In this document: one piece after another, positions 26,385-55,864 of the stretch
Layout: each line of letters opens with the position of its first letter
Numbering within the stretch: position 1 is the stretch's first letter
DNA from: Pseudomonas sp. W4I3
Lineage (GTDB): Bacteria; Pseudomonadota; Gammaproteobacteria; Pseudomonadales; Pseudomonadaceae
Assembly (NCBI RefSeq): GCF_030816195.1
Contig: NZ_JAUSXS010000001.1
Location: forward strand, 124,001 to 188,000
DNA: 64,000 nt
Direction of reading: 5' to 3'
The notes under the pieces: model-generated
What the model saw: only the letters and a program-made list of their open reading frames with translations
What the model was told of the DNA's origin: nothing
The model's database searches: none
Position numbers and translations under genes: made by a program

Positions 26385-26811
26385 CGCAGTATCTCCTCAC
26401 ACAAAGCGGGTGATGGCCTCAGGCGAGGCTCTTGTTATTGCGCTCGTCTCCTGCGAAGGAGAGAGGCTTTGAATTGATAGAGCAAATGCCATGCCTAAAA
26501 TTGAATGCCCGTCCAACAACTCCTAAAAACGACGTTTTGACGCGTCTATATAAGCCCGCCCGGGAAGTGTGGGATATAAGCGAAAAGGATGTAGGAACGT
26601 ATCCCCGCAAGGCGCGTGAGCAGATCGGTAGCACTTGTGGGAAGGCGCTTTGAGGGCATCAGGAAAGTCTGTCACCACAAGCACGGGTAGCAGGTGAACA
26701 GGCCCAAATCGTTTGCAACCTACTTATCTGTTTGCGACGCGCTAAAAGGTGGCGCTTTTGGCTGTGGTGTTCACTTTATGAGCAGTGCCAGATGAAGTGG
26801 CGCTATCGGGG
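26385..26811. other. Intergenic region upstream of gbdR
   Basis: No gene is supported in these 427 bp. A direct repeat, TGCAAC at 26714 and TGCGAC at 26733, resembles the CGAC-containing repeats near cbcX and gbcA and may be regulatory, but spacing differs (19 bp). Base 26802-26811 (GCTATCGGGG) is repeated exactly at 27251-27260, flanking the next element. Confidence 0.4.
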
Positions 26812-27250
26812 CATAGGTATCTACACAACTTTGTAACAGCCTACGGTAACCACGATGCGAAGCGAGCCGCTCTTGATCTTGATTTTAGGCGCCCCGTTAA
26901 ACCACGCTGGCCGCAAATCACTGTCGGATTACAGGCACACCGAGCGTGAGCGAGGTGCCGAGTGGTGGGGCAAACGCCCTTTGGTTACTTTGGGGCTTTT
27001 CCAAAGTGACCCGCCGTAAGGGCGGAACCCCAAGCCGCCGTTACCGCAGCAACGGATATGTACGCGCTCTGATCCAACATCCTAGTCGGCTGTCAGGCCG
27101 CCATCGGGAGCAAGTCGAACCGTCGCACCGCCCCTCCCACATTTGGATCGCGCGGCATCAATCAGATAGCTATAGGCCGCCAGGTCGCCACGGCAGCAAG
27201 CTCCCTCGCCACAGGTTCAGGGCTACGCCAAAGTTGTGTAGATACCTATG
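26812..27250 (-). mobile_element. Dispersed non-coding element, copy 1, with 22-bp terminal inverted repeats
   Basis: The 439-bp segment begins CATAGGTATCTACACAACTT and ends with the exact 22-bp reverse complement at 27229-27250. Bases 26812 to about 27108 match copy 2 (38771-39156) in reverse orientation, but copy 1 lacks an internal block of about 88 bp. The rest (27110-27228) holds broken REP-like pieces. The element is flanked by 10-bp direct repeats GCTATCGGGG. It encodes no transposase. Its readable frame (VTRRKGGTPSRRYRSNGYV) is a by-product seen as a spurious small protein in many Pseudomonas annotations (recalled). Confidence 0.65.
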
Positions 27251-27327
27251 GCTATCGGGGGCAAGCCCCCTCCCACATTTTGATCGGTGTATACATCTCA
27301 ACTGTGGGAGGGGGCTTGCTCCCGATG
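27251..27327. repeat. REP pair (GI type) at the element edge
   Basis: Reverse-orientation core at 27251-27276 and forward core at 27303-27327 lie just upstream of the sdaB stop. Confidence 0.85.
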
Positions 27328-38686: not shown

Positions 38687-38691
38687 TACAC

Positions 38692-38766
38692 CGCTATCGG
38701 GGCAAGCCCCCTCCCACACTTTGATCTGTGAATACAGTCAAATGTGGGAGGGGGCTTGCTCCCGAT
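38692..38766. repeat. REP pair (GI type) after betA
   Basis: Inverted cores lie directly beside the left edge of the dispersed element copy 2. Confidence 0.88.
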
Positions 38767-38770
38767 GGCG

Positions 38771-39156
38771 GCCTTACAGCCGACCATGGTGTTGGATCAG
38801 AGCGAGTACATATCCGTTGCTGCGGTAACGGCGGCTTAGGGTTCCGCCCTTACGGCGGGTCACTTTTGGAAAAGAGCCCCAAAAGTAACCAAAAGGGCTC
38901 CTGCCCCACCACTCGGCACCTCGCTCACGCTCGGTGTGCCCGTAATCCGACATTGATTTGGAGGGCCGCCGCCACGCGCCATCCATGGCGCGGGGGGCGG
39001 CTAAACCGGCATCCCTGCCGGTTTACCCTCCAAATCACTATCGAATTCCGGCCAGCGTGGTTTAACGGGGCGCCTAAGAGCAAGATCAAGGTCAAAAGCG
39101 GCTCGCTTCGCATCGTGGTTACCGCAGGCTGCTACAAAGTTGTGTAGATACCTATG
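38771..39156 (+). mobile_element. Dispersed non-coding element, copy 2, with cloverleaf-like insert
   Basis: This 386-bp copy matches copy 1 in reverse orientation and ends with the same 22-bp terminus at 39135-39156. Inside, 38955-38965 (GATTTGGAGGG) pairs with 39026-39036, enclosing two further perfect hairpins, CGCGCCAT/ATGGCGCG at 38975-38992 and AAACCGGCA/TGCCGGTTT at 39003-39024. This three-stem module is absent in copy 1. No protein coding is supported. Confidence 0.65.
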
Positions 39157-39261
39157 CCCCGATGAGGCCCCAACAAACACCACACACCTCCTTGATCGCT
39201 CCCCAGCCCGGGCCTACTCTGTTGGCCTGCCCTGCGCTGAGCCGCCCACAAGGAAGGCCCC

Positions 39262-40704
39262 ATGTTCGAACACCACGCCACGCTCAAGAAACACTTCAGT
39301 GCCCTGCGCACCACCGCCCCATTCTTCTCCCTGCGCTACGTACGCGAATCCGGCCGTTACCTGTCTGTACGCAAGAACGTCGCCGAACCGCCCCACCTGA
39401 GCCACGACGAAGGCGCCATGCTCACCGTGCGTGTCAACGGCGTGGAAGCCTACGCCGCCACCAACGATATTTCTCTGGCCGGCCTGCAAGCCGCCCTCGA
39501 ACGCGCCGAACAACAGGCCCGGCGGATCAAGCCCCACGCCCTGCTCGACCTGCACGAGCAAGCGGTCTCCAGTGACGTGGCCGATTACCTGTCCCCCAAT
39601 CTCGACCAGCCCTTTCCGTCCCTGAGCGACTGCTACCAACTGCTCGGCGATGAGTCGGCTGCGGTGCCCAGGGATGAGCGCCTGGTGAGCTGGGACGTCA
39701 GCCTCGGCCAGACCACGGTCGAACAGATCTACCTCAACAGTGCCGGCGCCCAATTGCGCCAGGCCCAGCGTTTTGTGTTCCCCGGCGTCAATGTCACCGC
39801 CTTCGATGGCAACGACAGCCAGACCCGCACCCTCGGTGGCAGCAACTTCGGCCAGCAAGGCGGGTTTGACGTGATCAGCCGCTTCGGCCTGATCGGCGCC
39901 GCGCCGCGGGTGGCCGACGAGGCCCTGCAACTGCTGCTCGCACCCAACACGCCCCAGGGGCCGCGTGACCTGCTGCTGATGCCCGACCAGATGATCCTGC
40001 AGATCCACGAGTCCATCGGCCACCCGCTGGAGCTGGACCGCATCCTCGGCGACGAGCGTAACTACGCCGGTACCAGCTTTGTGAAGGCCAGCGATTTCGG
40101 CCACCTGCAGTATGGCTCCAAGCTGCTCAACGTGACGTTCGACCCGGACATTCCCGAACAGCTCGCCAGCTACAGCCACGACGACGACGGCACCCGCGCC
40201 AGCAAGCAGTTCCTGATCCGCGAAGGGTTGCTGCTCAAGCCGTTGGGCGGCGCGTTGTCGCAATTTCGCGCGGGGCTGGGAGGCGTGGCCAACAGCCGGG
40301 CCAGCAGCTGGAACCGCCCGCCGATCGACCGCATGGCCAACCTCAACATTGAGGCCGGCGACCAGAGCCTGGCGCAGCTGATCGGCGGTATCGAGCACGG
40401 CATCCTGATGTCGACCAACCGCTCCTGGTCCATCGATGACGCGCGCAACAAATTCCAGTTCGGCTGCGAATGGGGCCAACTGATCGAAAACGGCGAGCTC
40501 AAAGGCGTAGTGAAGAACCCCAACTACCGCGCCATTTCCGCGCAGTTCTGGCGCAAGCTCAGCGCGGTCGGCGACGCCAGCACCTTCAAGGTGCTGGGCA
40601 CGCCGAACTGCGGCAAAGGCGAACCCAACCAGGTGATCCGCGTCGGCCATGCATCGCCGGCGTGTGTGTTCAGTAACGTCGACGTATTTGGGGGAGATGC
40701 CTGA
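39262..40704 (+). CDS. TldD-like metalloprotease subunit (divergent paralogue)
   Basis: The 480-residue protein of the TldD/PmbA family has the metal motif HESIGH at 249-254 and a Cys in TPNCGKGEP (C450), matching the HExxxH...C pattern of active TldD. The pattern EAYAATNDISLAGLQAALERAEQQA in the N-terminal part also fits. It is not the canonical TldD by my reading of the surroundings (no yhdP/rng/mreB-type neighbours), so this is a second pair. It overlaps the TldE-like gene by one base (TGATG). TldD/E degrade unfolded peptides and process ribosomal natural-product precursors; no precursor is seen here. Confidence 0.78.
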   Translation: MFEHHATLKKHFSALRTTAPFFSLRYVRESGRYLSVRKNVAEPPHLSHDEGAMLTVRVNGVEAYAATNDISLAGLQAALERAEQQARRIKPHALLDLHEQAVSSDVADYLSPNLDQPFPSLSDCYQLLGDESAAVPRDERLVSWDVSLGQTTVEQIYLNSAGAQLRQAQRFVFPGVNVTAFDGNDSQTRTLGGSNFGQQGGFDVISRFGLIGAAPRVADEALQLLLAPNTPQGPRDLLLMPDQMILQIHESIGHPLELDRILGDERNYAGTSFVKASDFGHLQYGSKLLNVTFDPDIPEQLASYSHDDDGTRASKQFLIREGLLLKPLGGALSQFRAGLGGVANSRASSWNRPPIDRMANLNIEAGDQSLAQLIGGIEHGILMSTNRSWSIDDARNKFQFGCEWGQLIENGELKGVVKNPNYRAISAQFWRKLSAVGDASTFKVLGTPNCGKGEPNQVIRVGHASPACVFSNVDVFGGDA

Positions 40705-55462: not shown

Positions 55463-55599
55463 TTTTGAGCGTGCAGCGAAAATACGACCCGATATGCTTG
55501 CCGACGGTCGTCTTTGTTAAGGCGGCTGTGTGTGGGAGGCCTTCGGGTCTGCCGGGGCTTAACTCCTCGGTCTGCGAACCCGCGTAAAGCTGCCACCCC

Positions 55600-55864
55600 G
55601 TCGCTTCTATCCCTGCGCCGAAACCACCACTGACTACCCCATGCTGTTGTCGACAGCGACGCCCCTCTGCTCAATCTCCACGCCTGCCTGCGCGAGCGCC
55701 TCTACGCCGCCCTCGAGCATCTCAACCTGATTGCCTGCTCCAGCCTGCCGGATTTTGCCGAGCGCGACCTGAACAATGTGGCCAATACCGCACGCATTCT
55801 GGTGCAGGACGTAAGTGATGTGTTCCGAGTCATAGAGCACCGTGGTTTCGACACAACTCACTGA
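55600..55864 (+). pseudogene. Decayed small gene, copy A
   Basis: A frame reading VVDSDAPLLNLHACLRERLY, continuing through LEHLNLIACSSLPDFAERDL and ending at the TGA at 55862, covers about 72 residues. Upstream coding (ETTTDYPML) is in a different frame, one base off at about 55645, and no start codon remains. The same sequence recurs as copy B at 57200-57519. The family is not recognised. Confidence 0.6.

Follow-up and report, generated by a model that had tools for sequence, protein, structure and literature searches.

A TwoAYGGAY RNA module in a dispersed, MITE-like intergenic element of Pseudomonas sp. W4I3

A cloverleaf-like insert in one of two copies of a dispersed element in Pseudomonas sp. 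W4I3 is a TwoAYGGAY RNA. It is encoded on the minus strand of the window (the whole stretch of 64,000 nucleotides that was analysed, contig NZ_JAUSXS010000001.1, positions 124,001 to 188,000) and consists of a long outer stem around two hairpins with GGA loops. The module belongs, as a standard component, to a larger structured intergenic element in which it is accompanied by a 3′ hairpin. Most copies in this genome lie in a non-autonomous, MITE-like transposon with inverted ends of about 22 bp and 10-bp duplications in REP sequences. The best reading of the sequence data is that read-through transcripts would contain the module and that it would trap RsmA at two sites.

Using Rfam cmscan on the whole window, we found that the minus strand of the insert matches TwoAYGGAY (RF01731) with an E-value of 3.1e-06 and a score above the curated gathering cut-off; hairpins with AYGGAY-like loops lie within an outer stem. 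The minus strand of 38940-39050 was predicted to fold into a three-way junction at -75 kcal/mol, compared with -42.2 kcal/mol (sd 3.7) for 200 dinucleotide shuffles (z -8.9). This is the structure that the initial annotation had described. Its outer arms (38955-38965 and 39026-39036) and its two perfect hairpins (38975-38992 and 39003-39024) are exactly where it had put them; the true outer stem is longer than it had seen, pairing about 39026-39046 with 38945-38965 in the fold. Its call of a structured nucleic acid is borne out by the family match, the fold and many compensatory changes. No tRNA or tmRNA was detected in the window, and such an identity was rejected. On the minus strand the loop sequences are CAGGGAUG and CAUGGAUG. 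The RsmA/CsrA binding consensus has the core CANGGANG, with which both agree, and each displays its GGA in a loop with C-G closure. The loop of hairpin 2 is AUGGAU, and that of hairpin 1, AGGGAU, deviates from strict AYGGAY. The parts of the module and its 3′ scaffold are as follows.

38934..39057, minus strand: TwoAYGGAY RNA module, the cloverleaf (cmscan, 54.7 bits against a gathering score of 43)
39026..39046, minus strand: outer stem, 5′ arm of the RNA (fold and covariation)
38945..38965, minus strand: outer stem, 3′ arm of the RNA (fold and covariation)
39003..39024, minus strand: hairpin 1, loop AGGGAU at 39011-39016, of the CANGGANG type (fold)
38975..38992, minus strand: hairpin 2, loop AUGGAU at 38981-38986, of the CANGGANG type (fold); stem longer than the 18 bases first noted
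38858..38890, minus strand: 3′ scaffold hairpin GGTTACTTTTGG...CCAAAAGTGACC (alignment; G.U/A.C count; similar hairpin in other genera)
38843..38859, minus strand: small hairpin CCGCC-GTAA-GGGCGG adjoining the 3′ hairpin (alignment; plus-strand pattern scan)

Elsewhere in the window, at 55515-55600 on the plus strand, lies a C4 antisense RNA (RF01695, 59 bits), a family from prophage immunity regions.

To follow the outer stem across the genus, we took 128 non-redundant modules from Pseudomonas loci; to be included, a module had to have a GGA in each loop and Watson-Crick pairing at 8 or more of 12 outer positions. Nearly all have loops of the form CA(N)GGA(N)G, in which N varies and GGA was a requirement of the search. 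The covariation and mismatch sets left out 28 loci from other genera (L121-L148). With 10 of 18 outer pairs required, 63 distinct stems passed in a single fixed register, and 79 if four registers were allowed. Because MAFFT, when aligning the 63 modules, introduced single-base gaps that offset one another within the right arm of some sequences, covariation was scored by script in a gap-free fixed register. For each of the 18 pairs of the outer stem, one or more sequences carried a change at both partners (a single sequence in two of the pairs), compared with a mean of 14 and a maximum of 17 in column shuffles and 8-12 in slid registers. Cells were paired in 93.4% of cases; shuffling columns lowered this to 67.4% (at most 70.5%), and sliding the register to 24-46%. 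Numbers of this kind are inflated by related sequences, but between classes the outer arms are almost wholly different (for example, GATTTGGGGGG/CCCCCCAAATC and GAATCCGTGGG/CCCACGGATTC). The outer stem is thus supported by covariation, as expected of a TwoAYGGAY RNA.

The mismatches were informative about the strand. On a given strand, mutation of a G-C or A-T pair gives G.U or A.C with equal chance. G.U is tolerated on the strand of a functional RNA, and the same change appears as A.C on the opposite strand. In a register fixed beforehand, the outer stems contained 68 G.U and 2 A.C mismatches. Since 28 of the 68 G.U sit in one column, we counted mismatches once per sequence context and obtained 19 G.U and 2 A.C (two-sided binomial, 2e-4). 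The fixed-register mismatches also included 56 G.A versus 8 C.U. Choosing the register for each sequence by Watson-Crick score gave 80 G.U and 3 A.C. The 3′ scaffold hairpin had 23 G.U and 2 A.C in 32 distinct arms, largely in two shared columns. We interpret the excess of G.U over A.C as a constraint on the RNA of the GGA strand; it points to selection acting on that RNA. The same asymmetry speaks against constraint solely at the level of DNA, by a cruciform or otherwise.

A DNA search with the whole element, followed by alignment, gave at least 32 copies in the 6.05-Mb genome (one contig). This is a lower bound, since 40 of 54 first-look candidates were scored and single ends (e.g. at 4272852) were left out. 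The copies comprised 24 near-full elements, five more distant ones with the module, two module-free ones and one fragment. Carrying the module, as 29 of the 32 do, is therefore the usual state. A genome-wide search yielded 29 RF01731 matches, one to one with these 29 copies and all over the cut-off; among 14 control genomes, one had a match, below the cut-off. The 29 modules, gathered by the whole-element query and so independently of their loops, all keep GGA in both loops. Many of these copies, however, differ little from one another and are presumably of recent origin, and loops still intact in them say little about selection.

Both inverted ends, starting CATAGGTATCTACACAAC, were found in 14 of the 32 copies, and these two-ended elements span 439-536 bp. 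Ten copies had one recognisable end; the ends of the remainder were damaged or absent, and the five distant copies and the fragment had none that we could recognise. The 10-bp target duplications of the 14 two-ended copies were perfect in 11 cases, had one mismatch in two and six mismatches in one; they consist of flanking REP sequence, e.g. GCTATCGGGG or CCCCGATAGC. A simple codon model called no coding gene inside any of the 32 copies. In a relative (G004), the gaps corresponding to both window copies hold REPs without the element, showing that both window copies are insertions. The element thus combines terminal inverted repeats, target duplications with empty sites, and short length without a coding gene, the features of a MITE. 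The insert thus sits in a mobile element, and to that extent the initial annotation is supported. The two window copies are laid out as follows.

38775..39156, minus strand: copy 2 of the element, one terminal inverted repeat left and the other end fused to a REP; one of the 24 near-full copies; empty site in G004
39135..39156, minus strand: terminal inverted repeat CATAGGTATCTACACAACTTTG (sequence comparison)
39157..39166, no strand assigned: remaining half of a presumed 10-bp target duplication (CCCCGATGAG) in a REP
38700..38765, no strand assigned: REP pair adjoining copy 2, presumed insertion target (element-free REP pair at this place in G004)
26812..27250, plus strand: copy 1, complete element with both inverted repeats, without the module
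26802..26811, no strand assigned: 10-bp target duplication GCTATCGGGG, left of copy 1
27251..27260, no strand assigned: 10-bp target duplication GCTATCGGGG, right of copy 1 (single copy at the G004 empty site)

In copy 2 the internal REP seems to have joined with the REP of the target, as would result from recombination between the two. Other genomes contain module-free elements of 94-277 bp whose ends are of this kind; in G143 and G067, elements with such ends (487 and 549 bp) do include the module. The moving unit therefore appears to be the MITE-like repeat, with the RNA element as cargo in some lineages. Ends with at most one mismatch were present in 17 of 149 genus genomes. The repeat is presumably moved by a transposase that acts on these ends; we found none on examining elements with such ends in other genomes. 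A candidate autonomous transposon in G052, its ends 4.8 kb apart, proved to be two separate short elements around ordinary genes. Residence on plasmids or phages was likewise rejected, as one plasmid and three phage records gave partial matches (E 1e-5), none covering 80% of the element. The record "Pseudomonas phage SC_10_H1H2H8_2017" contains 199 bp (MT121968.1:5283-5481) that are 92.6% identical to the element and could be host DNA. Elements were often seen as inverted pairs of about 780-850 bp with their 3′ ends outward (L179, L181-L185, L195 and L196); in L195 and L196, both in the W4I3 genome, the outward 3′ ends lie 3-21 bp from predicted gene ends.

The module is widely distributed. 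RF01731 was detected at E 0.001 in 95 of the 149 genus genomes, 83 of them over the cut-off; at most the best 17 candidates were scored per genome, so that copy numbers per genome are lower bounds. Across the class it was detected in 18 of 274 genomes, W4I3 included, and was over the cut-off in 14. Neither survey gave a match in 14 control genomes. An exact 27-base piece of the element was found in at least 116 stretches, from many species of the P. fluorescens group and P. viridiflava. Among the 28 loci from other genera (17 genomes), 14 have a hairpin with 10-bp arms, followed by CGC, within 200 bases downstream of the module, compared with 4 of 400 control segments. The module and its 3′ hairpin thus look like an old unit.

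The scaffold also occurs around other interiors. Sequences starting GGGCA(C/T)(A/G)CCGAG were used to build a 3′ scaffold profile, which matched loci of G016 and G011 as well (E down to 2e-29 among the fetched loci), two genomes without an RF01731 match in the genus survey. We counted 161 scaffold matches, with 4 near a locus end dropped. The loop pattern was fitted by 135 and not by 26, among them L006, whose GGA loop is longer, L168, which has lost one GGA, and several partial or non-element matches. In L168 (G005) the loop of hairpin 1 is AAGCAT, and hairpin 2 keeps its GGA. A second interior, predicted to form a four-way junction of two hairpins and an irregular third stem within the outer stem, was present in 11 sequences from four genomes. 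Its loci (L181, L182, L167 and L255 in G016; L170 and L256 in G011; L169 in G002; L194 and L253 in G005) mostly contain CATCGAGAGGAGGTGCAGCGAAGCAAACCGTAGGCGATG or a close variant. A third interior, in two sequences (L171 in G007, and L173), is a predicted four-way junction without the GGA hairpin pair. In L209 (G031), a scaffold copy has lost hairpin 2, so that hairpin 1 now caps the outer stem in a single long hairpin. Four loci with alternative interiors, three of them of the second kind, were searched against Rfam and had no match above a gathering score at these interiors. The second interior, as modelled, is possibly an undescribed RNA family. Because sampling favoured TwoAYGGAY loci, these counts cannot be read as interior frequencies. 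The same scaffold around unrelated interiors echoes the idea of a unit put forward in the initial annotation, and the interior may have been exchanged over evolutionary time while the paired outer arms were kept. Since some relatives have scaffolds whose interiors lack the pair of GGA hairpins, the scaffold can persist without that pair.

We then considered what the module might do. The W4I3 genome has three CsrA homologues and an RsmZ gene. RsmZ is an RsmA-binding sRNA and belongs to the same Rfam clan (CL00106) as TwoAYGGAY. As expected of a decoy, CANGGANG-like GGA sites are present in both hairpin loops of all 29 modules of this genome. CsrA was found in 18 of 18 RF01731-bearing genomes and in 3 of 14 controls; being confined, within the class, to genomes with RF01731, the comparison is uninformative. 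In the available part of a 2014 paper, CsrA binding was predicted for TwoAYGGAY from motif matches, and this is the one published proposal for its function that we found (PMC4333381). With tens of copies per genome in soil Pseudomonas, and signs of selection on the RNA strand, that proposal becomes testable in Gac/Rsm laboratory strains. Read-through transcription from a neighbouring gene would make an RNA copy of the element, and its two loops would bind one RsmA/RsmE (CsrA) dimer. Each copy would then be a small decoy or a local control site in a 3′-UTR. A trap of this kind is supported by the RF01731 match, the covariation, the G.U/A.C asymmetry, the conserved GGA loops, the shared clan with RsmZ and the CsrA homologues. 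Against it stand the lack of a sigma-70-like promoter and of orientation bias (see below), the GGA lost in L168 and the interiors without GGA. On balance, we think it rather probable that the module is an RNA that would bind RsmA and has been dispersed as a passenger of a mobile repeat.

The gene context bears on whether copies are expressed. By simple codon model genes, 18 of the 32 copies lie tail-tail, 14 tail-head and none head-head. No sigma-70-like promoter was found in 38690-39270 in a scan for sigma-70-like sites only. In nine of the 32 copies, neither flanking gene is transcribed in the direction of the GGA strand, which is antisense to both. In tail-head gaps, where orientation is informative, five copies had the same and nine the opposite orientation; there is no bias, and orientation was rejected as evidence of expression. 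The antisense copies and the absence of bias imply that many copies may be silent.

An RNA without any host function would fit part of this picture. The module would then be a passenger only, its pairing kept since the mobile element needs a structured RNA or DNA for its spread. The module does move with the MITE-like element, its scaffold has interiors that vary between genomes, and the distribution over gaps is as if copies persisted where they are least harmful. We nevertheless regard this explanation as rather unlikely: the presence of the module with a similar 3′ hairpin in other genera (14 of 28 loci versus 4 of 400 segments) suggests that it is older than the MITE, and the conserved GGA loops fit a protein ligand.

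The proximity to gene 3′ ends, with 0 of 32 copies between diverging genes, could also be accounted for by a bidirectional terminator or a structure that protects 3′ ends, the GGA loops being incidental. The hairpins are strong, and there are two weak terminator-like sites versus 0.5 in shuffles. Terminators, however, require neither conserved GGA loops nor a conserved three-way junction, and variation among the compared modules is lower in the loops than in the outer stem (GGA having been required in the loop set). A role of this type appears improbable.

Copy 1, which lies in the opposite orientation to copy 2, lacks the insert, as the initial annotation had observed. There is a single join in copy 1, close to the position 26911 given for it, but it does not fall between the outer arms, as the 3′ arm is still there.

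26913..26914, plus strand: deletion junction in copy 1 (86 bp missing versus the paralogue L017; CAA common at the join)

The paralogue closest to copy 1, L017, has the module; identity between the two is 97% to the left of it and 99% to the right. The second module-free copy (4284617-4284888) lacks 103 bp relative to its paralogue L023, with GCCCC common at the join. The left end points of the two deletions differ, and the right (3′) arm of the outer stem is kept in both; the fragment L030 starts within the module and keeps only the 3′ side. With one outer arm kept in both module-free copies, the module was not excised as a unit. Copy 1 lost it by deletion between short repeats at the palindrome, probably through replication slippage, and the module-free copies are most simply explained as separate deletions by slippage at a long palindrome. 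The suggestion that the module itself is mobile or leaves at the outer inverted repeat is therefore not supported: 29 of 32 copies keep it, and in place of identical, clean joins there are two different ones with microhomology. An alignment of copies had been proposed as the check, with gradual decay and a want of compensatory changes and of clean presence or absence counting against the idea. Compensatory changes proved plentiful, so the outcome that was to refute the idea was seen only in part. The window copies (one with the module, one without) and the loss of hairpin 2 from the still paired outer stem of L209 might bring to mind a DNA cassette, removed at the outer inverted repeat through excision or recombination. 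Such a cassette is largely refuted and highly improbable given losses that differ in size and left end, repeats at the joins, a retained 3′ arm and a G.U/A.C asymmetry unexpected for a DNA hairpin.

Returning to the RsmA trap, a broader and more doubtful extension is that Pseudomonas and other gamma-proteobacteria contain a superfamily of dispersed RNA scaffolds with exchangeable interiors, one of them a MITE-spread two-site RsmA trap that would act as a distributed sponge tunable by copy number. The scaffold would be the freely varying, covarying outer stem plus the 3′ hairpin, and the RsmA trap would be present at tens of loci. If this were true, transposition itself would shift the set point of the Gac/Rsm network. 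Our data also suggest that some of the so far unexplained intergenic repeats in these genomes are regulatory RNA that transposition has spread.

Among the matches listed in our literature searches (titles and starts of abstracts, few subscription journals), none linked TwoAYGGAY or CsrA/RsmA with repeats, MITEs or transposable elements, which is weak evidence of novelty. What we describe is a known RNA family in a setting that we did not find described: mobile, in many copies, with signs of strand-specific selection and on a scaffold that takes other interiors. The 2010 paper that lists TwoAYGGAY is reportedly by Weinberg et al. In the parts of the sources available, the family is listed as a candidate from human gut, gamma-proteobacteria and Clostridiales (PMC2864571) and is also named in PMC11701678. 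Our module resembles it in its two hairpins, long stem, GGA loops and score over the curated cut-off. Relative to the available portion of the published description, the copy number in Pseudomonas, the carriage by a REP-targeting repeat and the 3′ scaffold are additions.

RsmX, RsmY, RsmZ, CsrB and CsrC are decoys encoded by dedicated genes with their own promoters. The module shares GGA-loop hairpins with them, as far as the accessible part of PMC4333381 describes these RNAs. It differs in that it occurs in many dispersed copies with two sites each and had no promoter that we could find. The element is short and non-coding, with inverted ends and many copies, like the REPINs and MITEs of Pseudomonas. 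The ends of REPINs are REPs themselves, whereas our element inserts into REPs and carries a conserved RNA.

The 2009 paper on intergenic repeats of P. fluorescens is said to be by Silby et al. Its available part describes, in strain SBW25, R200 (320 bp, 47 copies), together with R178 (101 bp, with internal 11-bp inverted repeats) and R26 (352 bp), and reports that the repeats of P. fluorescens favour gene tails (PMC2718517). No RNA function is given there for these repeats (PMC2718517). Our element is similar to them in size and number, and its gene-tail bias agrees with theirs; R200, R178 or R26 may be the same element.
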